From assembly GCA_913057985.1 (NCBI GenBank), contig CAJXPL010000001.1, positions 1 to 64,000 on the forward strand: a DNA stretch of 64,000 nucleotides. Direction: 5' to 3'. Each line of letters starts with the position of its first letter. The first letter of the stretch is position 1. Below are positions 24,329 through 40,338 of the stretch, piece by piece. Source of the DNA: an uncultured Synechococcus sp. Its GTDB lineage: Bacteria > Cyanobacteriota > Cyanobacteriia > PCC-6307 > Cyanobiaceae. Under the pieces are notes generated by a model. That model was not told where the DNA came from, did not search any database, and saw only the letters and a list, made by a program, of their open reading frames with translations. The translations under genes were made by a program, and so were the position numbers.

Positions 24329-24394
24329 GTCGATTGGAGATGAACTGGTGAGATCAGCACCACCATGCTCACTTGACATCACCAGAAAATATGA

Positions 24395-24649
24395 ATGAAG
24401 TTCAAGGATTGCGCCATGCGAATGGCAGATTTTCTGTATCGCAAGCTTGGGCTCAATATTTTCAAAGCGGCACCCCACCTGCGAACTCTGACGCCAGACG
24501 CTCCCGCTCCAAAAGTGGTGGACCCGGAGCCCTTGGAACCACCAACCCCCATCCGCATATCGGCATCGGATGTGATTCACATCGGCCCAAGGGGTGGCCG
24601 CTACAAGGTTGATGCCAAAGGTCGCAAGATCTACCTCAAGGCCAGCTGA
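24395..24649 (+). CDS. Small protein with basic GPRGGRY adaptor-like motif
   Basis: An 84-residue protein from ATG 24395. A helical N terminus and a Pro-rich linker are followed by the C-terminal motif HIGPRGGRYKVDAKGRKIYL. This motif resembles the PBCV-specific basic adaptor repeat. Function unknown. Confidence 0.6.
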   Translation: MKFKDCAMRMADFLYRKLGLNIFKAAPHLRTLTPDAPAPKVVDPEPLEPPTPIRISASDVIHIGPRGGRYKVDAKGRKIYLKAS

Positions 24650-24806
24650 TATCGTCCAAACCGACAGATTGGACGACAAGCTGAGTTGAAATACTGATCA
24701 ATTTGGTTCAGTAGCAAACACAACCACCATCGGTTGAACCTGTACGACAAGGTTGAAGCAAATGGCGAGCTCGAGGTGAACACTGGTCCTGCTTGCCCCA
24801 TTCGAT

Positions 24807-24941
24807 TTGGCACCCTTGAACACCAATAAGGAATCGCTCGCCGATCAATGTCTGACGGCCGCAGAAATCGAATGGCGACGTTGGTCGGGCTGGCAGATGG
24901 AACGCACCGCTGAAAAACAGTTCAGAAAAAGGTGGGCCTGA
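24807..24941 (+). CDS. Possible small protein, 44 aa
   Basis: From TTG 24807 a 44-codon frame reads LAPLNTNKESLADQCLTAAE, then a Trp/Arg-rich tail (WRRWSGWQMERTAEKQF). The amino-acid pattern looks protein-like, but the start is weak and no family is recognised. It sits just upstream of the broken aminotransferase stub. Confidence 0.35.
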   Translation: MAPLNTNKESLADQCLTAAEIEWRRWSGWQMERTAEKQFRKRWA

Positions 24942-25032
24942 GTCGTTGACGAAAGCTCTAAGTCCCTAAAAAGCAACGCAGCCTTGCCAACGTGGTGATA
25001 CCGACCCTTTGGCTCAGGCCACTGCCGTGACC

Positions 25033-25080
25033 ATGCGCGACCTCTGCCCTGCCCTGCAGAACAAGATCTACTTCAACTAG
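25033..25080 (+). pseudogene. 15-codon 5' stub of the interrupted class V aminotransferase gene
   Basis: ATG 25033 opens MRDLCPALQNKIYFN and then a TAG. The same stretch appears in the intact gene at the other end of the element as LRDACPALANKVYFN followed by YGG. The stub ends exactly in the shared core TACTTCAACTA. It is the original 5' end of the host gene, cut off by integration. At DNA level the two 5' ends differ strongly, so they are not a recent duplication. Confidence 0.85.
25069..25079 (+). repeat. Left attachment core (attL)
   Basis: TACTTCAACTA, identical to 41657-41667 and in the same orientation. It lies at the point where similarity between the aminotransferase stub and the intact gene stops, as expected for the crossover core. 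Confidence 0.75.
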
Positions 25081-25148
25081 ACCCGCTCTACCTCAGAACA
25101 GCCAAGAAAGCCAATCTTTACTGACCTGCCTAGATCATCGGATTGGAG

Positions 25149-25170
25149 CTTGACCCACGGCTTGACCCAC
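25149..25170 (+). repeat. Left pair of 12-bp repeats, candidate integrase arm sites
   Basis: Two tandem copies of the unit GCTTGACCCAC(G/A), 12 bp apart. The 22-bp block recurs with one mismatch at 41584-41605, in the same orientation, and both blocks are just inside the element ends. This spacing fits arm-type binding sites of a lambda-like integrase. Confidence 0.55.
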
Positions 25171-25251
25171 ACTTGCAGCCCACCACTAGCCATGCTTTCA
25201 CCGCTGCTCAAAGCCTTTCTCGGGATGCTGGCAGGGGCCTACATCAGGCAA

Positions 25252-25277
25252 TAAAAAAACCGCCCAAGGAGGGCGGT
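25252..25277 (-). terminator. Terminator for the minus-strand operon of the element
   Basis: A 7-bp stem (ACCGCCC / GGGCGGT) with a 5-nt loop. Read on the minus strand it is followed by a run of six or seven T. It would stop transcription coming from the operon at 28390-25852 before it enters host DNA. Confidence 0.8.
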
Positions 25278-25295
25278 GAATAAGCCGTAGAGATT

Positions 25296-25475
25296 CCCAT
25301 CACCCGGCCTAATCACTACATCTATAGCGATGGGGAAAGCCTAGGGCAGCATTCCGTCACATCTATCGATGTGCAGATTTGCACAAGACTCACTTTAAGA
25401 AAGGTGTTTTGTTCACCACAGCACTGGATGTAGTGCTGTACGCGCGTTACGTTTGAAATCCCCATCACCCGGCCT
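25296..25475 (+). repeat. 15-bp direct repeat pair in the left intergenic region
   Basis: CCCATCACCCGGCCT occurs at 25296-25310 and 25461-25475. Between the copies lies a hairpin with a 7-bp stem (CAGCACT / AGTGCTG, 25419-25438). The second copy runs into a terminator. Purpose unknown; a decayed duplicated regulatory unit or an untranslated RNA are both possible. Confidence 0.5.
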
Positions 25476-25497
25476 GTCCTTGCGACGGGCTTTTTTG
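25472..25497 (+). terminator. Rho-independent terminator, plus strand
   Basis: A stem GCCTGTC / GACGGGC (one G-T pair) with a 5-nt loop is followed by TTTTTTG. No recognised gene lies directly upstream on this strand, so a small untranslated transcript may end here. Confidence 0.6.
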
Positions 25498-25851
25498 TTG
25501 GTGAACACCACATCTGGTGTACGAATTGGTGGCCACAGATGGGAAGAGAAAGAGGAGGGCGAGAACCAGAACTCCTGTCGGCTTACTCGCTCAGCGCCAT
25601 GGCGATGCCTGCAGCCTCGCTCACTAGATCCATGCGGCAGTGGTTGCTGTTCTCCCAATTCCGCAACCGCCCTGTATTTGCAGGGGTGGTGGCCCCAGAG
25701 GAATCACATCACGATGAAAAGCGATGCGATCCGTCTGGTTTCTGTAGCCAGGCAGCACATACCCCCCACCCCTCTCTTTCTCAGATGGAGGGGGTACACG
25801 GGGGGGATCTGTCGCGCCTTGTATACGTATGCCTCTTCAGAAATTTGGAAC
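25498..25851. other. Non-coding stretch at the left part of the element
   Basis: Open frames here have no protein-like composition and I see no RNA gene. Together with 25081-25471 it forms an 800-bp left margin holding only the repeats and terminators listed. Confidence 0.5.
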
Positions 25852-26148
25852 CTATTTGGCCTGGAAGGGGTCGTAGGTCTCGTCTGAATCGGCGTAGAGG
25901 TACTCCAGGGAGCGCGTCAGAGCACCCAAATCAGCCACGTGTTCGTTGTCAGGCTTGAGGGTGACGCCGCTGTTGGAGAGCCATTTGACGGCCTCTGCCA
26001 GCAGGCGCGGGTTTACCTCGCCGGTCTCGTCCAGCTGCTGCTGAATCGACCCTTGGAAAGCCTGCAGAAGCAGTGCTGCCAGAGCGTTCATGTCGCCAGT
26101 AGTCACACCATCGATCTGGTGTTTCTGTTTTTTGTCTCTGTAAGCCAT
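25852..26148 (-). CDS. Small protein resembling T7 small terminase subunit (gp18)
   Basis: A 98-residue protein from ATG 26148; a GTG nine codons upstream is possible. The C-terminal part reads NPRLLAEAVKWLSNSGVTL, then KPDNEHVADLGALTRSLEYL and an acidic tail. From memory this resembles the order of residues in T7 gp18 (SPQLYNAINKLLDRHKFQI, a KLQPD block, then LGGLAGALEEY). Small terminases pick viral DNA for packaging, and satellites such as PICIs carry their own to redirect helper capsids. The match is by eye, so homology needs a profile search. Last gene of the operon. Confidence 0.45.
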   Translation of the reverse strand: MAYRDKKQKHQIDGVTTGDMNALAALLLQAFQGSIQQQLDETGEVNPRLLAEAVKWLSNSGVTLKPDNEHVADLGALTRSLEYLYADSDETYDPFQAK

Positions 26149-26276
26149 TGGTTTTGCATCTTTGATCTGATCCACGGCTTGTGCGTGGCGATGTATTGGT
26201 CAACCTCACGGGCCACCTGGTGATGCCGATAAAGCATCCAGGCAGTTCCCAGGCGGTCACCGAGTCGGTTGTCCAT
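26103..26276 (-). CDS. Hypothetical protein, 57 aa
   Basis: From ATG 26276 (MDNRLGDRLGTAWMLYRHHQ) a 57-residue basic protein with one helical stretch. It overlaps the start of the terminase-like gene by 46 bp, long but possible in phage-like operons. No family recognised. Confidence 0.42.
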   Translation of the reverse strand: MDNRLGDRLGTAWMLYRHHQVAREVDQYIATHKPWIRSKMQNQWLTETKNRNTRSMV

Positions 26277-26362
26277 GGGGTTAGTTCTGTTTGTTGCTGC
26301 GTGGGGCGTTGAAGCCAAACCAGGTTCCGAAGCCGAAGCTGATGGCCATCAAGACTTGGACT

Positions 26363-26563
26363 TCAAGCATCAGAGTCCTCCTGGTGTCGCATCTTGAGGA
26401 GCTGATCCATCTGCCAGGAGAGCTCAGCTGCGTGGATCGCATCACCCCGCTCTCTTGCCTTGTCGAGGTTCTCCCTGGTGATCCGAATCACGAAATCCAA
26501 ATCAGCTCCGCCCACTGGACTGGATCTGATGGATACGGCTTTCAGCCACTTGGGAGTTTTCAT
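26363..26563 (-). CDS. Hypothetical protein, 66 aa
   Basis: A 66-residue charged protein (MKTPKWLKAVSIRSS, then a helical RITRENLDKARERGDAIHAA). ATG 26563 overlaps the upstream stop as ATGA, which supports the start and an operon. No family recognised. Confidence 0.55.
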   Translation of the reverse strand: MKTPKWLKAVSIRSSPVGGADLDFVIRITRENLDKARERGDAIHAAELSWQMDQLLKMRHQEDSDA

Positions 26564-26757
26564 TTGGCCTTCCTCTGACCAGCCCGCTTCACCTTGGGTT
26601 CGGGGACTGGCTCAAGAGGTGGCCGGTTGTGGCTGTACACCCAGCCCTGATCGTTCGCGACTCGCCTGCCAACACGGTCCACTGAAGGCCGGTGATGAGT
26701 CTGGGCGTTGTTCGTCGGCGGCTCTGTTGCAGGCCGCGTCGACGGTTCATAGGTCAC
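26560..26757 (-). CDS. Hypothetical Pro-rich basic protein, 65 aa
   Basis: I place the start at GTG 26757, which overlaps the upstream stop as GTGA; the longer frame to 26826 would overlap by 73 bp. The product is low-complexity, rich in Pro, Arg and Thr, with a basic C terminus (PKVKRAGQRKAK). Probably disordered. Function unknown. Confidence 0.5.
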   Translation of the reverse strand: MTYEPSTRPATEPPTNNAQTHHRPSVDRVGRRVANDQGWVYSHNRPPLEPVPEPKVKRAGQRKAK

Positions 26758-27094
26758 AGGACCTGAAGCTTTGAGTGATCGCCCTGATTGACGGGCTGTC
26801 CTTGGACCTGCTTGCCATTGATCCACAACTCGGATCTGTGGCTGCCCTCGCTGGAGCTAGCCAGGCCAAAGCTGTTCGAGGTGATCCCTCGATCCTTGGC
26901 GTCCTGAGCATTGAGGTCCAGGATCTCCTGCCGCTTCTCAGCAGCTTCCCGAGCACGAACCTTGTACTCGATGTCGAAGTTCTCAGCGGTAATCGCTTCA
27001 CCCCCAACTTCTTCTTCGCGGCAGCGATCTTGCGCTTAGCCCGCTTCTTGAGTTCAGCGGCAGTGGGCTTCTTCTTTTTCTTCTGTTGGGTCAT
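26754..27094 (-). pseudogene. Lysine-rich hypothetical protein with a poly-G frameshift
   Basis: ATG 27094 opens a very basic N terminus (MTQQKKKKKPTAAELKKRAK). The frame breaks in a run of five G near 27005. Adding one G joins it to GGEAITAENFDIEYKVRARE and on to LWINGKQVQGQPVNQGDH, ending at TGA 26754. The second frame overlaps the next gene as GTGA, so both halves were one gene. Either a true single-base loss, an assembly error, or recoding. The rebuilt protein is about 113 residues. Confidence 0.65.
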
Positions 27095-27537
27095 CGTTCC
27101 TGAACCTCCTTGACGGTCTTGGTGAGCCGCTTGATGGCTCGTTCGAGGAATGCGATCCGCTTCTTGGCGTCATCGAGCTCGGCAACCAGTGCCGCAGGTG
27201 CCAGACGTCGGCGCTGCTCCGCAAGAGCTTCACGCTCGACCTGCAGCTCAGCAGCGATACGAGCCTTCTCGGCCTCATGGTTCGAGTTGTTCTTGCTCAT
27301 ATCGGGAGCAGTCACACGCTCACCGGTGGGATTCACCAGCTCGCCGTGCTTATCGCGCACCTGTGGCTTCAGCTCTTTTCCATGCCCCTGGATAGGCACA
27401 GAAGCCCGGGGAGTGAAGTGGGAAGCAGAGGAGTGGAACTGGCCATCAGAGCCAACGACTCCGTTGACCTGCTCACCAGCCTTTATGGCCTCAATAGCTG
27501 CATCGGTAAATTCGATGCCACCAACTTTTGTAGACAT
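27091..27537 (-). CDS. Hypothetical protein with C-terminal coiled coil, 148 aa
   Basis: N-terminal MSTKVGGIEFTDAAIEAIKA, a polar middle, then a long charged helix from about residue 85 (EAEKARIAAELQVEREALAE onward) likely to form a coiled coil. Its stop overlaps the next ATG (ATGA). The leader before ATG 27537 holds two TCAAC units. Could be a scaffold-like or structural accessory protein; not recognised. Confidence 0.6.
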   Translation of the reverse strand: MSTKVGGIEFTDAAIEAIKAGEQVNGVVGSDGQFHSSASHFTPRASVPIQGHGKELKPQVRDKHGELVNPTGERVTAPDMSKNNSNHEAEKARIAAELQVEREALAEQRRRLAPAALVAELDDAKKRIAFLERAIKRLTKTVKEVQER

Positions 27538-27568
27538 AGTTCTTGTTGAGTAAGTGTTGATTTATTGA

Positions 27569-28390
27569 TCAGATGTGAATAGAAATGAGCCCATTCGCGG
27601 CTGCATGGAAGATTGCTTTTCCAAGGTTTGGATCACGCATAACCTCAGCCACAACCTGGGACTTCTTGATCGTCCCTTGTTCCAGTTGCAGTGAATACTG
27701 AGCGATCTGACTTCCAATGGTGTCGCCATACCGCGAGCAAAGTTCACCAACTTGACCAGGATCAAGGGCACTTGCTTCACTGCCAATCCAGTCGGGATTC
27801 TTCTGAAGCAGTTGAAGTCCACGAACAGCTCCATGGATTTCATAAGCCTCGCCTTCTTCGAAGATTCGGTTTAGCTCTTGGTTGGTTTCACGTTCGAAGT
27901 TATCGGCAGCAAATTGAAGTGCACCATCGACAACTTCATCACCGAGCTCAGCGCGCATTGCCTGACCGATGTCTTCGGTGGCAACTTCGGTCTGCAGCGT
28001 TGGATCAAGTCCCTGCTCCTGAGCCTGCACAAGAGTGGCAGCAAGCTTTTCAGCTTCAGCAGCGAGCCTCGCTTGCTCCACGGGTGAAGTCGATCTGTGC
28101 AACTTCTGTTGCGTCTCCATCAAGAGCTGCTCTGTGGCAGCGATCTGAGGATTCACGTTTCCGCGATCAACGTCCTCATCAGAGGTGTGGGATGCGTTGT
28201 GCTCGAGGTTTGCTCGACGTGAAAGGTTCCTAGCTGCCTGTTGCAGCTGATGCTCCTGGACCTCTTCGAGGCTTCCAAGACCATTCGCTTCTGAATGAGC
28301 GCTGTCGGACTTCGAGGAGATATTGACGGGTTGACCGCCATGGGTTTGTTCACCCTGTCCAGTTGCAGGGTTATAAGTAAATTCTGGCAT
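27569..28390 (-). CDS. Hypothetical acidic protein, 273 aa
   Basis: First gene of the minus-strand operon running to 25852. The N-terminal 90 residues are polar and low-complexity (MPEFTYNPATGQGEQTHGG). Helical Glu/Gln-rich sequence follows, ending RDPNLGKAIFHAAANGLIS. The size, acidity and helical content would suit a scaffolding-type protein, but there is no motif to prove it. Leader motif ACATCAACA sits directly before ATG 28390. Confidence 0.6.
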   Translation of the reverse strand: MPEFTYNPATGQGEQTHGGQPVNISSKSDSAHSEANGLGSLEEVQEHQLQQAARNLSRRANLEHNASHTSDEDVDRGNVNPQIAATEQLLMETQQKLHRSTSPVEQARLAAEAEKLAATLVQAQEQGLDPTLQTEVATEDIGQAMRAELGDEVVDGALQFAADNFERETNQELNRIFEEGEAYEIHGAVRGLQLLQKNPDWIGSEASALDPGQVGELCSRYGDTIGSQIAQYSLQLEQGTIKKSQVVAEVMRDPNLGKAIFHAAANGLISIHI

Positions 28391-29114
28391 TGTTGATGTA
28401 TGTCTCCAGGCTCATGTCCTGGGATCTAGCAATTAGGTTTGCCGCAACCTCTCGACAATCGTGTCGGAGTCTCAACGCCTGTTCTGCGTTGGTAAATGCG
28501 AAAAGAGCAGCAGTTCCATTCGGTGGAACACCTCACGGCTTATTGCTGCCAAAAGAAATGACGAATTGAAATGACTTGATGGAAAGCAAGAAAGGCCACT
28601 CACCAAACAATCTCTAATCGGTTTACGAGGAGGCATGTACGAATACCTCCAAGTCACCGCAATTGAACCTTGCAAGAGTCGCAAGGAACGTATCCACAGA
28701 CGGTTGTACCACTCACCGTCATTAACTCAGCTGTATTAGGTGCCCAGCTGTTGGCACAAGGGTGTCCGAAGAATTGCACTTCGACAGCGTCTGGTTATGA
28801 ACCTCTGCTGGCTTACCCACCCAAGAAAGTGATACCCCCGGTCGAAGCCAAAAAGAAGTATCAAATGTGCCCGATAAAGAAAAGCACAACATTTGAATCA
28901 TTCGTCCAGGATCCCGGCTCGCGCGCCTGCAGATCTCGGGCCTCCTCATTAACCCTGTAAAGGAAGTTCTGGCACTAACGCAGGTCCCGCGCTCGATCAT
29001 CAGCTCAACAAGTGGCAGTAGCCTCCGTGTCATCAGCCGCTGAGGACGACAACGCGCAGAAGCCCATGCAAGGTCTGCTAAACCATTTCGAGCCCAGGAT
29101 TTTCAGGAGAATGT
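28391..29114. other. 724-bp gap, no convincing gene
   Basis: Short frames on both strands have Cys/Ser/Arg-rich composition typical of shadows. It should hold the promoter of the operon starting at 28390. I see no terminator or RNA gene. Confidence 0.5.
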
Positions 29115-29570
29115 CTAGTTGAAACCAGGCTCTATTTTTGTAATTACTGGCTTACCGGGAGGCACTGTAAATGAATCAATAAGTACAACAGGTTCATTTC
29201 CAAGGTTTGCTGCAGACATTGGAGTATTTGGCGGCATGTAATAGCACTCGCCCGGACCATATACCGCATCCTCTTTTCCCTCAACGAAGTCTGTTATCTC
29301 GCCCGAAACAATGCACGTAAAACCTCCAAATTCATGCACATGAATGGCGACTCTTGTCCCAGGGAGTCTGGTACCCCTGGTGACACTTAATTGCATTCCA
29401 TCTGGTCGGATTGTATCGATTAGCAGCTTTGTGTTTACGAGCCCAGCCACGGTTCCTGGTGGTTTTTTCCCATTAATCAGGCTTGTAGGAGATATTCCTG
29501 CAGGCTTGGCGCTGACTGAAGTGAAAGCGCTCATAGCGATAGCTACTGCAGTGAGGGCGGTGCGGATCAT
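29115..29570 (-). CDS. Secreted single-domain cupin
   Basis: A 151-residue protein with an N-terminal signal peptide (IRTALTAVAIAMSAFTSVSA). A conserved beta-barrel cupin follows: motif 1 VAIHVHEFGGFTCIVSGEI with metal-binding His/Glu, and motif 2 GPGECYYMPPNTPMS. Substrate unknown. It is a single cargo-like gene, downstream of the RNA polymerase gene in the direction of transcription, 147 bp after its stop. It may act on an extracellular metabolite of the host or its surroundings. Confidence 0.75.
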   Translation of the reverse strand: MIRTALTAVAIAMSAFTSVSAKPAGISPTSLINGKKPPGTVAGLVNTKLLIDTIRPDGMQLSVTRGTRLPGTRVAIHVHEFGGFTCIVSGEITDFVEGKEDAVYGPGECYYMPPNTPMSAANLGNEPVVLIDSFTVPPGKPVITKIEPGFN

Positions 29571-29717
29571 TTGGTTGGGATTAGTGGTTTGGTCTTGAGG
29601 GGATGAAGGACGGGGAGTTTTCTCATATGTAAAGGATGGCAGCGATTTCAGCTCTTGCCCTCAGTTATGCGCGGGGACTTGCGCTTCCGGATCTTGAGCA
29701 CGTCGCCAACCGCTCCA

Positions 29718-32700
29718 TCAGCAGATGAAGTTCGCTGCTGTCCCACCGGCAAGGACCGCCGGGTCGAAGTAATCCTCATCATCTGTGCTCCGACGTATCA
29801 GAGACACGATGTGCGGAAGTCCGATGGACTTGGCGAATAGGTCGAGGGGTCGTTGATCGCCAGTCTTCTCACCAAAGAGCTTGGCAATGGCATCACCCAT
29901 CGCAGCCTTGAGAACGTCGCCTTCCCCCACTCGAACCCAGAAGCAGTCATGGACTTGCTGGTTGGGCACACCTCGCTTGTTGAGCTGAAGCTTCAGTTCG
30001 GTCAGCGTGGCTGAGTCGAGGCTGTGGCAGAGGTTGGCGACGATGGCGTCGAGATGCTCAGGGATGTCGACCTCACGGTTCTCAGGCGGAACCGAATACG
30101 TCTTCCAGTACTGCTGACTTTCGTGGGGTTGTAGCTCGAGAATCTCGCAGTCCTCACCGCTCTCGATGGCGTCGTGCACCATCTGGGCGAGGTACTGCAG
30201 CGGCTTCTCCGATGGCGGAGTTGGGCTGCTGAAAACCATCATCTTTTTGCTGCGATCAGCGTCACCGTGTGTGCAGTGACGTTGGCTCGTACGCCAACCG
30301 TGAGGCATGTCCCAGATGAGGGCACCGTCTTGGCGTGACACAGCATCCCAGTCGAGGTCGTCCTTGACGTGCTCCTTGACCACATCGCGGAAGTTCACGA
30401 TGGATGGAGCAACCAGAGCCAGACCTTCACGCAGGGCTTCGGTCAGGTTCTTGATCAGGGGGTCGACGTCACTGGGATACAGCTCACCGACCTTCCGCTT
30501 GAGTAGCGACAACCCATGGGCTTCCCGAACAGCGTTGATGTACAGCTGCACCGCATCGATGCGTTCGGCTACTTTCTGATTGAAAGCAGCGCGGACGTGA
30601 GGCGTGGCATCCCAGGCCTCTTTGAGCTCCTCGTACAGCCCCAGTTCCGCCTCGTAATCAGACTTCCCTTGTGGGGTGTCGAGCTTGTACTTGGCTTCAT
30701 TGGGTGGCTGTGGCGGCTCATCCGAGAGGGGCTTGAACAGCGTCATCACTGACGGCGGTTTTTCACCCTTCTTGGTGTTGGCCAACAGGGCGTCGTCCTC
30801 AGCCTTGATGGCATCAACAACCTGGAGGGTCTGAGCGATTGCCAATAACTCGGAAGCACGGGCATCGTCATCGGAACCACGTGCCTCCTCGACCTGTTGG
30901 CAAAGCCAAATGTGCATCTGCTTTTCAGCAGCGTCATCGAACGGCTTGAAGCGTGGGATGAACGGGTTACCGCTTTCCTCCATCGCTTCCCGCACCGCCC
31001 GCTTGTTCGTGTCAGCACTGGCCGAGTACAGGCATGTCATCACCACAGGTTTGGCGCTTGAACGACCAATCCCGTAGGCGTCGATTCGGTCTTCGATTTC
31101 TGCGTCGGCGATCACCTTGACGGACGTGAAACCGCTCTTGAACGTGAATCCGTTCCGCAGCAGTTCAGCCGCCTTGGCGAAGACCTTGATGTAAATGTCA
31201 GCCGGAAGGCCGTTGCCTGGGAAGGCGTTGACCAACTGCGCGCCGCTTTTGGAGCACGCAGAAAGCGATGCCATCTGGAGCCCACTGGCCGTGCAGTCCT
31301 TCGTGATGGCGAACCTTGTCTCAGTACGGCGCTTTTCACCAAGGAACAGCTCGTAGTACTCATGACACGCAGCCATGAAGCTGAACGGATCAGACGCACC
31401 ACCTTCGATGACCTCGCGGCCCAGATGATCGCGGCCGAGTTGACCAGCCCAAACCTTGAAGCCCTCGTAGCTGAGCGGCGATTCCGCCACCAGCTTGATC
31501 GTGGCGATCTGTGTCCGAGCCCAGTTGACTAGATCAGATTCGCTGAGCTTGTCGCTCTTGGCCCCCATGTCCGTCTTGGCTCCCCAGGTCGTGGCGATCT
31601 GCCAGAGCAGGTCGTCTTGAACCTTGGAGCGATTGGCATCGGTAACTGCGAGCGGGTCAGCCATCAGCAGCAGCGCTTTGCAGACCTCGCGTTCGATTGG
31701 ATTGAGCGCGCCCAACCCGTAAAACCTCCTGCGAGAGTCACAGAACCAGACCACGTAAAACCGCTCCGTCGCGTTGAACTTCCGCAGAAGCTCGACACTC
31801 TCGAAGACGGTCTGAATGCGGCTGGCTGATCCACGCTCCTTGATGGCCTGCTCATGCAGGCGTGTGATGCGGCTCTTCATGACACCGATCACCTTGGACC
31901 GGTCGAGAAGCCGCTGACATCTTTCAGCCTCAGTGGAAGCAGCATCCGGTCGGATTGCATTCCGCTTGGCGTTGTAGGTCTTCTTGAGATGGTCAACGTC
32001 CTCAGCACGGGCCTTCGACATGAGCGTCAGGCTGTGCACGTTCATGAAGCGGTATTTGTTCTCCGTGATCGGAGCTCCGTCTTTCCGCAGTGAATCGATG
32101 ACACCGAAGACATGCTCATTGAGAGCCATCGGTTGGTCCTGAGCCATGTTCAGGGCCTGCAGCCATTCAGGTTCTTCACCCGACTCACTCACCTCATCGG
32201 TGGTGTGCAGGGCGAGCTTGCTGTGGCTGATCGTCTTCCGGTTGGTCTTGGTGTAGGCATCGAGGAGATACCCACCGACTGACCGACCTTCGACCACACC
32301 ACCCTTGTACGCGCTGTGGGGTACAGGAGGGATGGTCATAGGGACATGGCAGTAGGACGACCCGAGATTGCGAGCGATCACATCACCCGCAAGCTGTTGT
32401 CCTTGCTCTGTCAGTTGGACGATGTCCACAGAGTGGCCGTTGCGCGCTTTGACACCGAAGACCCGAAGGAAGCCAGCGCTTTTGAAGAGGTCGACATAAG
32501 CGCTACCAACGCGCTTGCATTTCTCGTCATCCCACTTCGCCAGGTAGTCCTGATCGGTAGGGAGTCTCAGGTCGTCGTACTCATCCAGCTTCTCGATCTG
32601 TGCCTGGCTGATGCGGCGGCTCTTGATTTGCTGCTTCACCCGACGCTCAACTGAGCGAGTCATCCGCATGAAAGCGTTATCCCGGGAGATGCCAGCAGGC

Positions 32701-33404
32701 AGCCGACGAACGTCCTGCATCCAGCGATCCAGGTTCAGCCGGGCAAAGCCAACTGTTTGGAGCTCACGGTTGCAGGCCTCACCGATCTGGCGGCAGAGGT
32801 CGATCTCAGTGATGTTCCGATTCTTGGGATTGTCCCGATCAGCCATTGCACCGATCACATCGACGATCACCCGAGAGACGGTCAAACCGATCGAATAGAG
32901 GTTGACGTAACCGAGGACACCTGGGTCATCCACCTTGTTCAGGTGATGGGCGGGCTTGACGAAATCAGGCCTTGCATCACTGAGGAACTCAGGACCGAGC
33001 GCCAGATGAAACAGGCTGATGACATCGGCAGCGTTCTGATCGCGCTTGTCCTTTTTGCAGAAGCGGTAGTACCGCTCAATGAACAGCGTTGTCAGCGTGA
33101 ACGCCAGCTCATCACCGAGTGACTTGCTGCTGAGCGTTCCCTTCTTGATTGCCTTGGTCATCTCATCGACAGCCTTGGCTCGAGCCAGCAGATGCGACTC
33201 AATCTCCAGGTCCATCTCCCGCTGAATCTGTTCGCCAGTGATGCCGCGCTGGGCATAGATGACGCGAACACCAGCGTCGACGTCAGAGCTCCAGACACCA
33301 CGGGTGCCTTGGTTCTGCTCAACGAGGACAGGGCTGATCTTGTTGTCAGCGTTCAGATGGTTGTTTTGAAACTCCTTTGGAAGCGTCGTTGTCCGTAAAG
33401 CCAT
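29718..33404 (-). CDS. Single-subunit (T7-type) DNA-directed RNA polymerase
   Basis: A 1228-residue protein from ATG 33404 (MALRTTTLPKEFQNN); a longer frame to 33491 overlaps the recombinase and is less likely. T7-family motifs are visible in order: VVWFCDSRRRFYGLGALNP (T7 DxRGRVY...NPQ block), motif A KDCTASGLQMASLSACS (metal Asp), motif B GRSSAKPVVMTCLYSAS (catalytic Lys), IVANLCHSLDSATLTELKL (T7 PNFVHSxD block), and motif C QVHDCFWVRVG (HDSF-type metal Asp). At 1228 residues it is much longer than phage enzymes (about 800-900); an N-terminal region of about 500 residues and an insertion of about 250 residues between motifs B and C are unassigned. Catalysis looks intact. It probably transcribes the element from its own promoters. 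Confidence 0.88.
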   Translation of the reverse strand: MALRTTTLPKEFQNNHLNADNKISPVLVEQNQGTRGVWSSDVDAGVRVIYAQRGITGEQIQREMDLEIESHLLARAKAVDEMTKAIKKGTLSSKSLGDELAFTLTTLFIERYYRFCKKDKRDQNAADVISLFHLALGPEFLSDARPDFVKPAHHLNKVDDPGVLGYVNLYSIGLTVSRVIVDVIGAMADRDNPKNRNITEIDLCRQIGEACNRELQTVGFARLNLDRWMQDVRRLPAGISRDNAFMRMTRSVERRVKQQIKSRRISQAQIEKLDEYDDLRLPTDQDYLAKWDDEKCKRVGSAYVDLFKSAGFLRVFGVKARNGHSVDIVQLTEQGQQLAGDVIARNLGSSYCHVPMTIPPVPHSAYKGGVVEGRSVGGYLLDAYTKTNRKTISHSKLALHTTDEVSESGEEPEWLQALNMAQDQPMALNEHVFGVIDSLRKDGAPITENKYRFMNVHSLTLMSKARAEDVDHLKKTYNAKRNAIRPDAASTEAERCQRLLDRSKVIGVMKSRITRLHEQAIKERGSASRIQTVFESVELLRKFNATERFYVVWFCDSRRRFYGLGALNPIEREVCKALLLMADPLAVTDANRSKVQDDLLWQIATTWGAKTDMGAKSDKLSESDLVNWARTQIATIKLVAESPLSYEGFKVWAGQLGRDHLGREVIEGGASDPFSFMAACHEYYELFLGEKRRTETRFAITKDCTASGLQMASLSACSKSGAQLVNAFPGNGLPADIYIKVFAKAAELLRNGFTFKSGFTSVKVIADAEIEDRIDAYGIGRSSAKPVVMTCLYSASADTNKRAVREAMEESGNPFIPRFKPFDDAAEKQMHIWLCQQVEEARGSDDDARASELLAIAQTLQVVDAIKAEDDALLANTKKGEKPPSVMTLFKPLSDEPPQPPNEAKYKLDTPQGKSDYEAELGLYEELKEAWDATPHVRAAFNQKVAERIDAVQLYINAVREAHGLSLLKRKVGELYPSDVDPLIKNLTEALREGLALVAPSIVNFRDVVKEHVKDDLDWDAVSRQDGALIWDMPHGWRTSQRHCTHGDADRSKKMMVFSSPTPPSEKPLQYLAQMVHDAIESGEDCEILELQPHESQQYWKTYSVPPENREVDIPEHLDAIVANLCHSLDSATLTELKLQLNKRGVPNQQVHDCFWVRVGEGDVLKAAMGDAIAKLFGEKTGDQRPLDLFAKSIGLPHIVSLIRRSTDDEDYFDPAVLAGGTAANFIC

Positions 33405-33429
33405 AGTTGATGTGTAGATGTTGATGTCT

Positions 33430-34041
33430 TCAGGCGAGGCAAGCCAGCACGTCGCTGTCACTTGCATCGAGGTATTCGCCAAGGGGACCAAGCGACTTGT
33501 GTCCGGTCAGCGCCATCACGTGGCGTAGCGGAGCGCCTTTGTCCACCGCTGCCTGAGCAGCAGTACGGCGGAAGCTGTGGGTTGAGATGCCTTCGACACC
33601 GATCAGAGCAGCCGTCTTGCGGAGCTGTTTGTCAGCTGCCTGGCGGCTCATCGGTTGAGTCACCGAGTCATCCGTGTGGAACAGGAAGTGGCCCGGCTGT
33701 ACATCAAGACACGTGGCGCGGTAACGATCGATCTCTGCAGCAAGTGCAGGGCAAATCGAGACCTGACGTGTCCGCTTGGATTTGGTCGTCGCTTTTAAGA
33801 AAGTGACGCGACCACCGGCAGTGGCGGCCCAGGTGACCTGGAGCGCTTCGCCAATGCGAGCCGCTGTGTACCGCTGAAGTGCCCAGAGCATCCGGTACTT
33901 GGGAGATGGAGCCGCATTGAGCAGATCCTGGAATTGCTGATCCGTGAGGGCTGAAGCTTTGCCGTTTCGAGCAATTTTCACGATTGATATGGGGGTTGAT
34001 ATCGGGTCTTGCACCCAGTGATCCGGCAATAAGACCGTCAA
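33430..34041 (-). CDS. Small tyrosine recombinase, catalytic domain only
   Basis: About 203 residues from TTG 34041. All catalytic elements are present: Arg in YTAARIGEALQV, Lys in TTKSKRTRQVSIC, STHSFRRTAAQ (HxxR), LTGHKSLGPLGEYLDA (His and Tyr). The usual N-terminal SAM-like core-binding domain is missing, so it is either a minimal recombinase or truncated. It lies 25 bp upstream of the RNA polymerase start. It could resolve multimers or drive excision. Confidence 0.8.
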   Translation of the reverse strand: MTVLLPDHWVQDPISTPISIVKIARNGKASALTDQQFQDLLNAAPSPKYRMLWALQRYTAARIGEALQVTWAATAGGRVTFLKATTKSKRTRQVSICPALAAEIDRYRATCLDVQPGHFLFHTDDSVTQPMSRQAADKQLRKTAALIGVEGISTHSFRRTAAQAAVDKGAPLRHVMALTGHKSLGPLGEYLDASDSDVLACLA

Positions 34042-34056
34042 CCTACGAAAGTCAAG

Positions 34057-34067
34057 GGGTAGTACCC
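34057..34067. promoter_or_regulatory. GGGTAGTACCC motif before the small recombinase
   Basis: A near-palindromic GGGTAGTAC site 16 bp upstream of the recombinase start. The same 9-mer occurs at 34524-34532 and, inverted, at 38283-38291, all in intergenic DNA of the element. Candidate operator or polymerase-specific promoter element. Confidence 0.45.
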
Positions 34068-34176
34068 AAACTCTCAGGACTTACTCAGCAAATAGCTGAA
34101 GCCAAGACCACGCCAAGGCCACGGACCTTGGAGCCCAGCTGACTGGGACGTGGTGGGATTGCCGTCGTTTTTCGCC

Positions 34177-34452
34177 TCAGGCTTCCCAGGCGAATTCATC
34201 CAGGGCACGAGCCAGAACGCGCAGGCTCTCGATGGCATCGAGCTTGCGGGCTACCTGCTTCAGCTTCAGCTGAAAGTCAGGGTCATCAATGGGAACGCTG
34301 GCGTCTTCGCGTATCGACTGCTCAGCAATGTCCAGCAAAGCCTTGGGGTTATTGCGGACCTCTTTGGTCTTCAAAGCAACCTTGCGGCCCAGCACGATCA
34401 GAGCAACTTCTGAAAGCGCATTTCGGTATTCCCAATCGGTTGTCTGTGTCAT
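34177..34452 (-). CDS. Hypothetical helical protein, 91 aa
   Basis: A 91-residue acidic protein (MTQTTDWEYRNALSEVALIV, later KLKQVARKLDAIESLRVLAR). Helical, no recognised domain. The leader has three TCAAC-like units before ATG 34452, with the composite repeat at 34499-34532 upstream. Confidence 0.6.
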   Translation of the reverse strand: MTQTTDWEYRNALSEVALIVLGRKVALKTKEVRNNPKALLDIAEQSIREDASVPIDDPDFQLKLKQVARKLDAIESLRVLARALDEFAWEA

Positions 34453-34498
34453 GAGTTGAGTTGATATTGACGTGTGGTTAAGCCTTCAAGGTGCTCTT

Positions 34499-34532
34499 CA
34501 ATGGGAAGGCAAAATGCAGCAACGGGTAGTAC
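34499..34532. promoter_or_regulatory. Composite repeat, copy A (CAATGGGAAG-N2-AAAATGCA plus GGGTAGTAC)
   Basis: The 20-bp block at 34499-34518 recurs at 38257-38276 with two mismatches, and in both places a GGGTAGTAC element follows within 6 bp. Copy A lies 47 bp upstream of the gene starting at 34452. Candidate promoter for the T7-type polymerase, or an operator for the element's regulator. Confidence 0.5.
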
Positions 34533-34748
34533 CGTTACATCAAGTCACGCTTTGCCGAATCTCGGCAACACCTGGAGCTGAGAAAAGCTCGATGGTGGTG
34601 GTGGCGAGAAGACGCTCACCCCCTGGAGTTGGAATGCAACAGCGGGTCTTCTTTGCCAAATAGAGGGGAGGCTTCTACGCCTCCTTTCTGCTTTTTCAGT
34701 ACTCAGTCGCCGCAATCCACGGAGCAACCACACACCACTCACCCGCAG

Positions 34749-34865
34749 ATGCAAAGGTCCAAAGTTCTGACCGTCCTGGTCTTTGTCTTGTTTTTCGCTT
34801 GGGTGTCCACCAATGCATCTGAGCGAATACCGAAACCCACCACCCCACAAATGGTCGGCAAATAA
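34749..34865 (+). CDS. Possible small membrane or secreted peptide, 38 aa
   Basis: ATG 34749 opens a 38-residue frame with a strong hydrophobic segment (KVLTVLVFVLFFAWVS) and an Ala-Ser-Glu site that could be cut by signal peptidase, then a polar Pro-rich tail. A hairpin with a 6-bp stem and T-rich tail (34667-34690) lies upstream. Opposite in strand to its neighbours. No clear ribosome binding site. Confidence 0.35.
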   Translation: MQRSKVLTVLVFVLFFAWVSTNASERIPKPTTPQMVGK

Positions 34866-34970
34866 ATAGTTGGGTGGTCGTCACTTCTGGTCGTATAGCT
34901 CCACGGCATCCACCAGGTGAGCCAAAGCCATGCGGTTACTGCTCGGCATGATTCGGCCATCTTTGAACTA

Positions 34971-35075
34971 CCACGGAATACGGGCGAGCTTGCAATCAGG
35001 GGTGTGGACTTTCGTGTTGGTACTGCCGCAGTACTCGCAGAGGTACTGAATCGGCTCATTGCTGGGATAGGTCAT
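34971..35075 (-). CDS. Tiny zinc-finger-like protein, 34 aa
   Basis: ATG 35075 overlaps the upstream stop (ATGA). The 34-residue product has YLCEYCGSTNTKVHTPDC: a CxxC followed by His and Cys, enough for one zinc site. A further 22-codon frame (34881-34949, MPSSNRMALAHLVDAVELY) lies just downstream and may also be translated. Confidence 0.5.
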
Positions 35076-35338
35076 AGGTATCGGGGGTCGATGAGGTCGG
35101 TACTGCTGAATTTATCGAGATACGCAGCTTTGATTTGAGCTGCTTGCTCCTCGACGTACTCCAAGGTCTTGGGGTTGGTGAAGACTCGGAATTGATTGGA
35201 TAGCCGACGGAAGTTGCAGTACTCATTCCAAACATCCAGTCTGTCTTCATACACCATTTGTTCCACAGGCTTGTGGCTCTTGGCGTCAAAGGGTGGCGGT
35301 AGTTGTACCGCAAGGGGTTTTTCCATTGTTGTTGTCAT
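35072..35338 (-). CDS. Hypothetical protein, 88 aa
   Basis: From ATG 35338 (or ATG 35323, MEKPLAVQLPPPFDAKSH) an 88-residue soluble protein with aromatic and charged helices (DRLDVWNEYCNFRRLSNQF). First gene after the putative origin, coupled to the zinc-finger-like gene. No family recognised. Confidence 0.6.
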   Translation of the reverse strand: MTTTMEKPLAVQLPPPFDAKSHKPVEQMVYEDRLDVWNEYCNFRRLSNQFRVFTNPKTLEYVEEQAAQIKAAYLDKFSSTDLIDPRYL

Positions 35339-35508
35339 GAGAGAGGAATTGAGGTGCTAGATGGCCCACAGGCCATAGCGATATTCGAAGACCCAGGAAC
35401 GTTTGGGGACAGGCTTGAGCTTTTCGTCAGCCTTTGGTTCGTTAGTGTTATCCGCAGGCTTATCCGGCTCGCGGGGTTTGGGATGTTTCATTGGGAAGAG
35501 ATAAAGGA

Positions 35509-35724
35509 GTTACGCCCAGTTACGGGTGCAGTTACGGGCTAGATCGCTGAGATGTACTGTTATAACTGAGGAGTTACAGCAGTTACGCCAGTTACGGACA
35601 TCGGAAGGGCAAAATAAAATTGCGAGGGACCGAAGCAGATAGAGAATTGATCTATACCCCGTAACTGCCGTAACTCGCCAGTCATAGCTTGAAAGTGCCC
35701 GTAACTGCAGTTACACCCAGTTAC
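35509..35724. other. Iteron array, probable replication origin of the element
   Basis: Eleven copies of GTTAC in 216 bp; the fuller consensus is GCAGTTACGG. Six direct copies lie at 35509, 35519, 35531, 35573, 35582 and 35591. Five more lie at 35661, 35670 and 35701 (inverted) and 35710 and 35720 (direct). Between the clusters is a 65-bp segment with an AT-rich core. Two iteron clusters flanking an AT-rich core are the known plan of SaPI and P4-type satellite origins. It is directly downstream of the primase and helicase genes. Confidence 0.72.
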
Positions 35725-35726
35725 GC

Positions 35727-37106
35727 CTAAAAGTCAGAATCATCGATCTTTGTTGAGAACTTGGGGCGATGACGCTCTTCAGCTTTGTACGCCTCCTGAT
35801 AGTTCTCGTATTGATTCCATCGAGGATGCACAAACAGGCACTGCTGAGTTCCACCTTTGGTGAGCCTCACGTGCTTCATTGACCAGTTGTGCTTCTGCAT
35901 GAACCCGTTGATCTGATCATCAGTCGGTACGAATTCACCGCCACCTTGGATTGCTCCCCTCACATCATTACGGCTGAGGAAGATTCGGTTCTCGAAGTTG
36001 AGCTTGTCGCAGCAATCCTCATACCAGCGTGATTCACTCACGAAGTCAGAGGTGAAGGCATCGAGATCAGCAAGGACCTCTTCGACATGCTTCAGCTCAC
36101 GGCCTACCCAGTTGCGGAAGTACTCCTAGACAGCAGCGGCCCAGATGCCATCACGTGCATCGAACAGCTTCTGAGCATCACCGAGTCGAAACTCACCCTG
36201 CTGCAGATGGAACAGGTTGATCGGCAGGAACCTGCGGCGCAGATCATTCGGGATGAAGTTGGCCAGGTTGCTGGTACCGAAGACGACCCACGTTCGAACG
36301 AATGGCTGAGCATTCTTGTTCTTGATAGGTGTCACGGATCGACCAGCTGAGAAGAACGTCTTGATGACGCTGTGCGGAACCGACTTGGTGAACGCATCGG
36401 CTTCGCTGATTTCGAGGATCAGTGACTGCTTGGCCGCGACGAGGACCTGATCGATCTGGTACTTGTTCGCCTGTGGCTCGGTTGTATTACCAAGGTCGAA
36501 GGGAGCAAGGTTGGCCATGAATGACTTGCCAATCTCACGCTCACCCAGCAGCACCGGACAGAAGCGGTAGTAACATCCAGGCCCAAACGTCCGGGCAACT
36601 GCAGCAACGAGAAACAGCTTGAGAATCTCGTTTGCATGGGGCGACTTGATGTCATTCCCAAAGGCCCAGGTAGCCAGGTTGTTGAACTTGTAAACGTCGG
36701 CATCGGCATGACGCAGACCTTCGAAGTACTCGACCAACGTGTTGAACTCATTGGCCCTAGCCATCCGTCGGATCGTGTCGATCACCACGGTCTTGTCAGG
36801 GTTCTCGTCATGAGCTTTCCCGAGTTCGATGTAGAGGCCAGCGATGGCTTCGATGTCATGGGGCACCCATTGACCTGAGTCCTTCTTGCGGATCTCGATC
36901 ACATCCTTCAGCAGGTTGAACCGCACACGTCCATCCCAGAACTTCTCAGTGAGTCGGGTGGTGTCCAGCACTGACAGCTTGTAGGCCTTCTTCTTTTCCT
37001 CCGGCGCTACCGGCGGCGCTGCCTTCAGCTGTTCGTTCTCTTGTTGCAGTTGGGCGATCAGTTTCGCCAGCTCACCAATGTCTTCAAATGTCGTAGGCGT
37101 TTCCAT
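35727..37106 (-). pseudogene. VirE/DUF5906-like replicative helicase with an in-frame amber stop
   Basis: ATG 37106 opens METPTTFEDIGELAKLIAQL. The P-loop is LLGEREIGKSFMANL, followed by helicase blocks (AKQSLILEISEADAF, then VRTWVVFGTSNLANF and NDLRRRFLPINLF). At 36126-36128 an in-frame TAG follows GIWAAAV. The frame then stays open as EYFRNWVGRELKHVEEV through a winged-helix-like C terminus to 35727. Rebuilt length is 459 codons. CAG to TAG would explain the stop. The family loads at origins with a primase. Confidence 0.78.
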
Positions 37107-38094
37107 CGCTGGTATCTCCTACGGCGTTCAAGGTATTGATGCGGCGCTCACGCTTCGCGACGGTGTTGAAGCTTTCGACTTGGTACTCGTCCGTCTCGGG
37201 GTTCTCCTTGAAATAGAGGAAGTACTCCTTGAGCTTCCGGAACCCACCAGGATTGGAGTCGAGTGATTCCCACAGCCGTTCGCAGGCTTCAGGATCGAAC
37301 TCGGCATAGTCACGAGCAGACCACTCCTCAAATCAGGAGTAGGCCCAGTCATATCCATGTCCTTCGATATTCCGAAGACAGCCAGCAACACGGACCCACG
37401 TATCGCGGGAAGTGTTGGGGATGTTGTGAAGCCAGAACTGCACGCGCTGAAGACTTGAGTCCTCTTCGTATCCACGGTTCGCGGCCACGTAGCTCTGATG
37501 CTGCAGTTTCTTCTGTGCATCGGCGATGGGCCGGTGAAAGTAGACCGTCTTGGTCGGCAGTCGATTGTCCAGATTGAAGACGTGAGTCTCCGCACCTGGG
37601 TTGCCATACAACAGGCTCGCGGCATTGATTGCCGGGTCAGACCCTGGGCACTCCATGGCCAGTCCCTCAATCAAACGATCGAAGACCTGAGCATCAGTGA
37701 CCACATGGTCCAGGGCAAAGACAACGCGAAAGCGATCACCCTTGCCGGGCTTGCCATGGCTGGCTGATGTGTAGGCGAAGGCGGCGAACTGGTTGAAGTA
37801 GGGATGCTCTTTGCAAGCAGCCCAACTGAGGTTCGCGTCGAAGTCCAACAGCAAATAACTGGCCTCGAGAAAGACCCCGCGCTTTTTGCTCTTGTATCCA
37901 TTCCGCCAACGGGCTGGCGTCACGGCGTAGCCCTTCTCGGCCACAGCGTTGAGCAGATGCTCGGGCTGAGCACCGGGTGCCCAGATCCATTGATCACCCA
38001 GCATCAGTCCCCGAAGGGAATCAGCGGGTGGTTTTCCCACGACGTTGTCGCGGTAACTAAAGCCTCCTTGGAATGGTGGCGATTCATTAGTCAT
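37084..38094 (-). pseudogene. PrimPol-type primase with an in-frame opal stop
   Basis: ATG 38094 opens the frame. The archaeo-eukaryotic primase motifs are visible: ASYLLLDFDANLSW (catalytic DxD), YTSASHGKPGKGDRFRVVF (SxH region and Arg) and GSDPAINAASLLYG. A PriCT-2-like region follows (RDTWVRVAGCLRNIEG). A TGA at 37333-37335 interrupts it after DWAYS; the frame continues as FEEWSARDYAEFDPEACERL to a stop at 37084, as expected for the PriCT-2 domain. It overlaps the helicase start by 23 bp. CGA or TGG to TGA would explain the stop. Confidence 0.78.
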
Positions 38095-38185
38095 TGAAGT
38101 AGTTGATGTTGAGGTTTTGAACTCACTGACTGAGTTGATTGGAGTCAGGTGACACGGCGATTGAGTTCGTTATCCGTGCCCCTTG

Positions 38186-38233
38186 ATGCCACCAACCGGC
38201 ATCGAACCGGTTGACCATCCGCTGTGGTGGCAT
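38186..38233 (-). other. tRNA-like hairpin upstream of the primase gene
   Basis: An outer stem of 9 bp (ATGCCACCA / TGGTGGCAT) encloses a 13-nt single-stranded part and an inner arm ACCGG-TTCGATG-CCGGT. On the minus strand the inner arm looks like a tRNA T-arm (5-bp stem, 7-nt TTCGA loop) stacked on an acceptor-like stem, but there is no anticodon or D arm. Not a working tRNA; perhaps a mimic or a regulatory leader. Confidence 0.45.
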
Positions 38234-38256
38234 TGATGTTTTTCGGGCGTTCCCTG

Positions 38257-38291
38257 CAATGGGAAGCTAAAATGCATACCCAGTACTACCC
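38257..38291. promoter_or_regulatory. Composite repeat, copy B
   Basis: CAATGGGAAG-CT-AAAATGCA followed by an inverted GGGTAGTAC element (38283-38291). Partner of the copy at 34499. It lies about 165 bp upstream of the primase start, in the only regulatory region of the replication operon. Confidence 0.5.
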
Positions 38292-38384
38292 GATAACAAT
38301 TAATGAGTCGCGCTGGCATTACTATCCTCTCCGCTTCCGGGAGGCTGCTGGGGTCCCCTGATCGCCCCGTCTTGTTGGTTGCCA

Positions 38385-38410
38385 ATAAAAAGCCTGTCTC
38401 GAGGACAGGC
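38385..38410 (-). terminator. Terminator, minus strand
   Basis: A 7-bp stem (GCCTGTC / GACAGGC) with a 5-nt loop. Read on the minus strand it is followed by TTTTTATT. It ends the operon 39685-38463, so the primase operon must have its own promoter in 38100-38385. Confidence 0.8.
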
Positions 38411-38462
38411 CAAATGAAGAAGACACCAGCTAGGCAAAGGACCTGGATGGATATTCAATTAA

Positions 38463-38903
38463 TTAAAAATCAAAATCTTCAGGGGTCTCTTCGTCAGATA
38501 CATTCTTTTTAAGCAGCTCTTCTAAACGCTTGGCAAGTTCGTTGCCTTTGCCAACGGCCGGCGACTCTCCTTCCCACCATGAAATGGCCTGAATATCTGA
38601 CCCGATAGCATTAAGCATCAGGCCAAAAAGCCTACCTTTCATTTGATCTGTCTGGTTTGACCAAGGCAGTGCCCTAAATCGCGTCGTAGATTTTTTATTA
38701 ACTCTCCTTGAAATCTTTATAGCCGATATCTCTTCATCCATTAACAAATGAAGTAGAAACCCTGCAGTAAACTCTTCAACAAAAACATCGCATCGATGCT
38801 GACTTCCCTCATAAGTAACGAGGATCTCAACAGCAATGCCAAGAGGAGTGTTCCGCTTGGCAATCACTTGATCGAAACGAACTCCGCAGATTAGGTTTTT
38901 CAC
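38463..38903 (-). CDS. Hypothetical protein, 146 aa
   Basis: GTG 38903 lies 4 bp after the upstream stop, and is preferred to the longer frame at 38966. A 146-residue soluble protein (VKNLICGVRFDQVIAKRN, VEILVTYEGSQHRCDVFVEE) with an acidic C terminus (EETPEDFDF). No family recognised. A terminator follows. Confidence 0.6.
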   Translation of the reverse strand: MKNLICGVRFDQVIAKRNTPLGIAVEILVTYEGSQHRCDVFVEEFTAGFLLHLLMDEEISAIKISRRVNKKSTTRFRALPWSNQTDQMKGRLFGLMLNAIGSDIQAISWWEGESPAVGKGNELAKRLEELLKKNVSDEETPEDFDF

Positions 38904-38907
38904 TAGA

Positions 38908-39066
38908 TCAGTCCTCCAGGCTATGGTTTGCGAGTTCAGCAAGGAGCTTGTCTTCAAGTCGATCAAACTTCGTCCATTCAGGAGAGTTTTCTTCGACCTG
39001 AATCAGCAACTTGCGAACATCTTCCAGCTGGTAAAGTAGGTTGTCGAGGTAAGAATGTGGGGTCAT
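38908..39066 (-). CDS. Hypothetical helical protein, 52 aa
   Basis: ATG 39066 opens a 52-residue, strongly helical acidic protein (LDNLLYQLEDVRKLLIQVEE, then RLEDKLLAELANHSLED) with heptad-like leucines. Possibly a coiled-coil regulator or antirepressor-like peptide. The following gene starts after 4 bp. Confidence 0.5.
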   Translation of the reverse strand: MTPHSYLDNLLYQLEDVRKLLIQVEENSPEWTKFDRLEDKLLAELANHSLED

Positions 39067-39151
39067 TGGTGCAGAAAAAAGAGGAAGTACAGGTAGGAAA
39101 TCAAACGGCCCATAAAAACTGACAAGACTCCGAAGAGAAAGCCTGTCATCG

Positions 39152-40334: not shown

Positions 40335-40338
40335 CGAG

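Follow-up and report, generated by a model that had tools for sequence, protein, structure and literature searches.

Phage-inducible chromosomal islands (PICIs) are generally described as elements of ~16 kb with an integrase, a regulator and primase/helicase genes, tycheposons as integrative elements of picocyanobacteria with a tyrosine recombinase and cargo, and a relic prophage in Synechococcus WH8016, in an island tied to a DNA polymerase, has reportedly been described together with uncultured temperate cyanophages. The T7-like cyanophages Syn5, P-SSP7 and S-SRP01 (Autographiviridae) encode single-subunit RNA polymerases (RNAPs) of 777–779 amino acids (aa), and the RNAP gene has an integrase gene as its neighbour or separated from it by a single gene. 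Stable T7-like lysogens have been sought in marine Synechococcus and, according to excerpts of PMC8776855, not found. Here we analysed a window of 64,000 nt from an uncultured Synechococcus sp. (assembly GCA_913057985.1, contig CAJXPL010000001.1, positions 1–64,000) which contains an integrative element with an intact gene for a T7-family RNAP. This RNAP shares its family and catalytic residues with the cyanophage enzymes but has extra N-terminal and B-to-C sequence. The element has the size, integrase, regulator and primase/helicase genes of a PICI, a possible small terminase subunit (TerS) and no capsid genes that we could find; unlike PICIs, it carries a single-subunit RNAP and a candidate copy of the RNA and promoter site which, in a helper-type phage, lie at the end of the large terminase subunit (TerL) gene. 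It resembles tycheposons in its tyrosine recombinases and probable cargo, but lies in an aminotransferase gene and has a phage-type polymerase and a candidate TerL-end module. Like the WH8016 island it is phage-derived and, judging from the phages and relatives of its host, from a marine Synechococcus-type cyanobacterium, but it holds an RNAP, and scans of this bounded element turned up no structural genes. Judging from its sequence, we favour, with a little more confidence than doubt, the reading that it is an integrative, satellite-like parasite of T7-like cyanophages, with its own RNAP and a phage promoter/RNA/genome-end module.

An intact T7-family RNA polymerase in a bounded element

The original prediction was of an intact T7-family RNAP of about 1228 residues in a bacterial chromosome, and this was borne out. 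The open reading frame (ORF) encodes 1228 aa from an ATG or 1257 aa from an upstream TTG, within a stop-to-stop frame of 1262 aa. It is far longer than chance would give: among 60 sequences of 64 kb, simulated with a first-order Markov model of the window, no stop-free run exceeded 497 codons. It was matched by Pfam RNA_pol (PF00940; E = 1.1e−21, 77.6 bits vs a cut-off of 22) and, over residues 87–850, by PHROG 414 “RNA polymerase” (phrog_414; E = 2.8e−67). When aligned with T7 RNAP, the key residues D537, K631 and D812 were identical, as predicted, as were D421, R423, R425, Y427, K472, Y571, R627, Y639, H784, D787 and H811, while 4 of the 18 T7 positions printed differed in the window RNAP: S539 (T), R632 (P), G640 (S) and A883 (C). 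The distance from R781 to H1127 is 346 residues, vs 157 from R627 to H784 in T7, which confirms the long B-to-C insertion that had been proposed.

This enzyme is distant from the relatives that we found. All 406 phage records which matched it did so at < 60% identity and none reached 80% coverage. Of 135 candidate stretches in viral contigs, 131 proved to be relatives, and the best 80, which were kept, had 26–31% identity; for 13 viral enzymes, compared over the core only, identity was 26–29%. Within the tree set its top identity was 25% over 779 columns, and its best local stretch (37% identity) was with the polymerase of L091, a related locus described below; 43 viral-contig stretches were taken as possible relatives of the L091 polymerase and none was confirmed. 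By sequence, the matches to solved structures were weak and were to mitochondrial RNA polymerases (best E = 0.0093), and two structure predictions (mean confidence, pLDDT, 38.8 and 41.1) were too poor for use. The window RNAP fell outside the sampled cyanophage clades, with a placement that is unsure because it forms the longest branch of the tree. Membership of the single-subunit polymerase family is supported, and the tree with cyanophage polymerases gave the enzyme no secure place.

That the RNAP gene lies in a bacterial chromosome follows from empty sites in two relatives, in neither of which an RNAP was found. Window positions 22700–25079 and 41657–43000 are contiguous in G003 (L215) and G029 (L216) with an 11-bp overlap, so that the element could be delimited (Table 1). 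PHROG scans of 20 ORFs of the element gave no match to capsid, portal, tail or TerL. Near-identical DNA was found neither in phages (searched with the whole element) nor in plasmids (searched with 33430–41583 only).

A cyanophage TerL-end RNA motif and a candidate promoter block

The noncoding region beside the polymerase matched no credible Rfam family (best c-di-GMP-II, 17.8 bits vs a gathering threshold of 53.5, E = 0.79). A pattern taken from the 3′ end of this region in the sister elements matched 54 viral contigs, and in 49 of these the motif loop begins 13–38 nt past the stop codon of an ORF that resembles TerL. These ORFs were recognised by a tail pattern which was written after the tails had been seen; all ten that were tested by profile (nine from motif contigs and that of L097) were TerL. 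Of the remaining five contigs, four (L143, L149, L151 and L160) look like chance coding matches; in L146 the ORF upstream of the motif is a different one. The motif stretch extends past the annotated TerL in Syn5, P60, SS120-1 and S-TIP28, and in S-CBP42 it lies where no gene is annotated. For a 7-bp helix, 60 double-change cells were counted over 31 phage copies (0 of 500 shuffles), and its pairing was 99.5%, vs 50–65% in slid controls.

We built a covariance model (R1) from these 31 phage copies only. At E ≤ 0.1 it found one copy each in 15 of 19 chosen records, which overlap with the model in at least Syn5, S-TIP28, S-CBP42 and G151, and none in P-SSP7, S-SRP01, CRP-113 and T7. Six contigs outside the model scored 26–28 bits. 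The related bacterial loci L092, L097 (right after TerL), L091 and L096 scored 61, 45.7, 26.8 and 19.6 bits, respectively. Of 146 relatives, 73 had matches to the model at E ≤ 1, from which we kept those below 1e−4 (G066, G014 twice, G024 and G013) and that in G020 (E = 0.018), the place of which was known beforehand. The matches in G056 (5.7e−4), which looked coding, and G104 (7.8e−4) were dropped. Two of the bacterial copies, in contigs L173 (G024 C1:871741) and L174 (G013 C65:4508), have no RNAP match nearby.

The window copy consists of a hairpin with GAGUGGUAC, GUGGAUA, an extra hairpin, UUGCGGUGA and a hairpin; the extra hairpin is also found inside the motif of L096. Fold z-scores of the motif region were −1.07 in the window, −2.77 in L096, −2.35 in L092 and −3.85 in L091. 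The putative tRNA-like stretch upstream of the motif was called by neither ARAGORN nor Rfam.

At the promoter position of the motif there is a 49-bp block which is nearly the same in the window and L096, although their RNAPs are 19% identical. Its sequence could be that of a promoter, an operator (there is an imperfect palindrome inside) or a terminase site. No further copies occur in the window, where its sub-patterns occur once; TGGGCACC alone was not enriched (7 found vs 4.19 expected). The palindrome pattern was exact in the window's own genome and G020 when 146 relatives were searched, with 7 more genomes at 2–3 mismatches and 2 matches for a reversed-pattern control among the matches listed, and it was not used further. 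The promoter of the Syn5 polymerase is known (excerpts of PMC3950665), and in the two Syn5 stretches examined it abuts the motif, with one further copy inside the RNAP gene. Because this promoter directly precedes the motif, the phage polymerase should start RNA at the first base of the motif. Among the phages (L165 2798–2812 and the 49 viral contigs), the motif stays constant but is preceded by varying sequence.

Related elements and polymerase loci in other genomes

RNAPs were found at 8 loci in 7 of 148 genomes, own genome included. Three loci (L091, L092 and L096) resemble the window element in having a recombinase near the RNAP, a noncoding region and then a protein of ~260 aa. The recombinase and the RNAP adjoin each other in the window, and they are one small ORF apart in L096, one gene apart in L091 and three genes apart in L092. 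The window recombinase is 49% identical to an ORF of L096 and 53% to one of L094. The ~260-aa proteins of L091 and L092 are related by search to the 273-aa protein of the window; that of L096 is 20% identical to it in an alignment, and the search missed its genome, G020. The 273-aa protein had no match among 50,697 phage records at E ≤ 1, and a role as scaffold was rejected (E = 0.23 with the Syn5 scaffold). Flank matches gave sizes of 16,588 bp for the window element, 16,326 bp for L096 (27-bp overlap) and ~16,829 bp for L092, the last using a more distant genome (the window's own) in which the flanks are ~96 bp apart. These are three divergent elements of near-equal size at three sites, with RNAPs of L096 and L092 that are 19–21% identical to that of the window.

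Over 1047 aligned codons, the polymerases of the sister pair L091 and L092 share 53% identity; they differ at 38, 30 and 61% of codon positions 1, 2 and 3, with saturated synonymous sites. Past purifying selection would be expected to leave such a pattern. This test rests on L091 and L092, as the window RNAP is without a close relative for such a comparison.

L094 and L097 look like T7-like phages or prophages: both RNAPs nest with cyanophages in the tree, L097 carries TerL and L094 has, by eye, phage replication genes. The remaining RNAPs form long, deep branches of unsure order. L097 (G014 contig C12) is a T7-like phage contig in which the motif directly follows TerL; it also has an RNAP and an integrase-like ORF (by eye) near a tRNA-Leu. 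It could be a prophage that is stably maintained or else a phage that was sampled together with the cell, and the same genome also holds the element L091. At L095, the RNAP locus of G024, a 6S RNA gene sequence is repeated on both flanks (2757–2819 and 13308–13370), which suggests an integration of about 10.5 kb in the 6S RNA gene. The G066 sister element contains a permuted transfer-messenger RNA (RF04321, 61.6 bits; L092 15565–15711, minus strand).

Broken replication genes and other features of the element

The replication genes of the element are both broken, as had been predicted, by one TGA in the primase-like frame and one TAG in the helicase frame (Table 1). Part of the primase-like frame (37333–38094) matched phrog_25531 (unknown function; E = 1.6e−12) and phrog_2135 DNA primase (E = 0.0027). 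We judged stop-codon recoding unlikely because each frame is open on both sides of its stop, in the same frame, and because TGA and TAG both terminate other ORFs of the element. As both genes carry stops, the element is probably unable to replicate by its own primase and helicase, and the window copy would then either need a helper in order to replicate or be at an early stage of decay. An endolysin match on 35727–36041 (E = 0.048) is part of the helicase frame and was disregarded.

It had been argued that an RNAP which stays open beside two broken genes points to selection or to recent decay. The frame is indeed open, but the argument from it carries little weight: from gene length alone, the probability that neither of two random stops falls in the RNAP is P = 0.47, and the integrity of the RNAP is therefore not by itself evidence of selection.

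The 414-aa tyrosine integrase at the right end is probably the element integrase and the left 22-bp repeat a possible arm site for it. Probable roles are regulation by the 110-aa ribbon-helix-helix protein, on the basis of its sequence, and cargo for the cupin-domain protein. TerS candidates were matched by phrog_891 in both the window and L096 (E = 6.6e−5 in the latter); BLASTP gave no alignment between that of the window and a short L097 ORF picked by eye as a possible TerS. The insertion site is also used elsewhere: a region related to the integrase end (window 40274–41667) was found in G013 at 74% DNA identity, with matching pieces in G014 and G020 (68–70%), making the aminotransferase site an integration hot spot.

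Table 1 Features of the integrative element, with positions in the window
Feature	Position	Strand	Evidence
Whole integrative element, 16,588 bp plus second core copy	25069–41667	.	Empty sites in two relatives
Left 11-bp core repeat TACTTCAACTA	25069–25079	.	Flank overlap in G003/G029
22-bp direct repeat, ~70 bp inside left core	25149–25170	.	21/22 identical to 41584–41605
Candidate TerS, 107 aa, tentative, near left end	25852–26175	-	phrog_891 E = 0.0015
Three short overlapping ORFs (66, 88 and 115 aa), unknown	26363–27094	-	No function-bearing PHROG match
148-aa protein, function unknown, common to L092	27091–27537	-	tblastn 30% identity, E = 1.6e−8
273-aa protein, function unknown, accompanies RNAP in sister elements	27569–28390	-	In 3/146 genomes: G000, G014, G066
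Noncoding region, blocks common to L091, L092 and L096	28391–29114	-	Alignment, blocks judged by eye
Diverged copy of cyanophage TerL-end RNA motif	28620–28719	-	Covariance model R1 on 28687–28727
49-bp block at promoter position of motif	28716–28764	-	94% identical to L096 7084–7131
Putative tRNA-like stretch upstream of motif, by eye	28757–28823	-	Predicted fold not cloverleaf, z-score −0.64
Cupin-domain protein, 151 aa	29115–29570	-	PF07883 E = 2e−9
Single-subunit T7-family RNA polymerase, intact, 1228 aa	29718–33404	-	Pfam, PHROG, T7 alignment
Tyrosine recombinase, 203 aa, directly upstream of RNAP	33430–34041	-	PF00589 E = 9e−19
VapE-like replicative helicase, one in-frame TAG (36126–36128)	35727–37106	-	PF05272 E = 7.5e−21 on 36126–37106
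Primase-like protein, one in-frame TGA (37333–37335)	37084–38094	-	Profile matches on 37333–38094
Probable ribbon-helix-helix regulator, 110 aa, weak match	40002–40334	+	RHH_5 E = 3.8e−4 (below Pfam cut-off); Arc-like repressor E = 0.009
Tyrosine integrase, 414 aa, right end	40339–41583	-	PF00589 E = 2.7e−10; phrog_1 E = 7.9e−23
22-bp direct repeat, ~50 bp inside right core	41584–41605	.	Pair of 25149–25170
Right 11-bp core repeat TACTTCAACTA	41657–41667	.	5′ part of class-V aminotransferase ORF 41561–42787

Discussion

In the satellite-like reading, the 414-aa integrase would have inserted the element at the 11-bp core in the host aminotransferase gene, the borders being those observed, and the ribbon-helix-helix regulator would probably keep it silent. 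Infection by a T7-like phage would lead to excision, and the RNAP of the element would then transcribe the left half from the 49-bp block. In Syn5 the corresponding position, immediately upstream of the TerL-end motif, is that of the known promoter. This motif would mark the phage genome end beside TerL, as a candidate replication or packaging start; together with the possible TerS, it may allow a helper to package the ~16.5-kb genome. The empty sites, the scans without structural or TerL matches, the three similar sizes, the recurring neighbourhood, the motif, the Syn5 promoter that abuts it, the 49-bp block in the same position in the window and L096, and the candidate TerS count in favour of such an element.

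A number of results weigh against it. Both replication genes are broken. The TerS match in the window is weak (E = 0.0015), and no TerS was seen in the scanned ORFs of L091, the contig of which is cut, or L092. The only proteins of the window element with a match in L096 are the recombinase and the polymerase, and the further RNAP loci L093 and L095 are without a credible motif. The window motif had a modest score with the phage-only model (17.2 bits, E = 0.01 over 199 kb; the best other match in the same search had 13.1 bits), was not reported by a genome-wide run of the model with stricter filters and did not fold unusually well (31 of 200 shuffles were as good). It should also be noted that the motif search was not blind, because its first pattern was derived from these elements. 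Part of the 49-bp block had two matches in viral contigs, both coding by eye; as no phage with the block was found, no helper phage is known.

The main rival to a satellite is a relic prophage, which we consider unlikely, though worth real weight: a temperate T7-like phage would have integrated and lost its structural genes, and the polymerase, recombinase, primase, helicase, possible TerS and TerL-end RNA would be its decaying leftovers. The stops in two genes are consistent with this, as are the T7-like phage contig with TerL in the relative G014 (L097) and the transient integration of T7-like cyanophages described in excerpts of PMC8776855. Against it, three divergent elements of near-equal size at three sites have part of the gene set in common, and no structural genes or TerL were found among the scanned ORFs of 25069–41667. 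The window RNAP, although its place is unsure, groups outside the sampled cyanophage clades, unlike those of L094 and L097, the site is an aminotransferase gene and not tRNA-Leu, and the L091 and L092 polymerases differ mostly at third codon positions (61% vs 30% at second positions).

We regard as rather improbable that this is a self-sufficient integrative element, tycheposon- or plasmid-like, which captured a phage polymerase/recombinase/RNA cassette, uses the polymerase for transcribing its own genes only and needs no helper. Its own integrase, probable regulator, primase-like, helicase and cupin genes would suit such an element, as would the fact that no helper was found, but the TerL-end motif, the possible TerS and the common size would be left unexplained. 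That the polymerase has been domesticated as a dedicated transcription system with a host function is very improbable: the frame and catalytic residues are intact, but RNAPs occur in just 7 of 148 genomes, own included, on divergent elements, and none was found in the empty-site relatives. We give hardly any credence to a faulty assembly or a contaminating phage contig, since, even in a draft genome of 61 contigs, the host DNA is continuous on both sides, the junctions carry an 11-bp repeat and two relatives have empty sites.

Beyond the satellite-like reading of this one element, the sequences allow a broader proposal, which we put forward tentatively and with more doubt than belief. The elements would form a class of ~16.5-kb phage satellites in marine picocyanobacteria with orthogonal transcription, comprising a highly diverged RNAP, its own promoter and a structured RNA taken over from T7-like phage genome ends. 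By acting at that site, the RNAP would initiate replication or packaging in helper particles, so that satellite transcription would be tied to the hijacking of the packaging motor. In T7-like cyanophages generally, the motif would serve as an RNA or packaging signal made by the phage polymerase. In the open-access literature searched we found no paper combining “phage satellite” and “single-subunit RNA polymerase”, which does not prove its absence from print.

The varied start-position sequences of the 49 contigs represent a natural series for studying polymerase–promoter specificity. The TerL-end motif would be a conserved RNA or polymerase start site for T7-like cyanophages, the role of which is directly testable. 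If the satellite-like reading is true, the chromosomes of abundant marine cyanobacteria harbour transcription systems of the phage type, and the candidate promoter is open to an immediate in vitro test.

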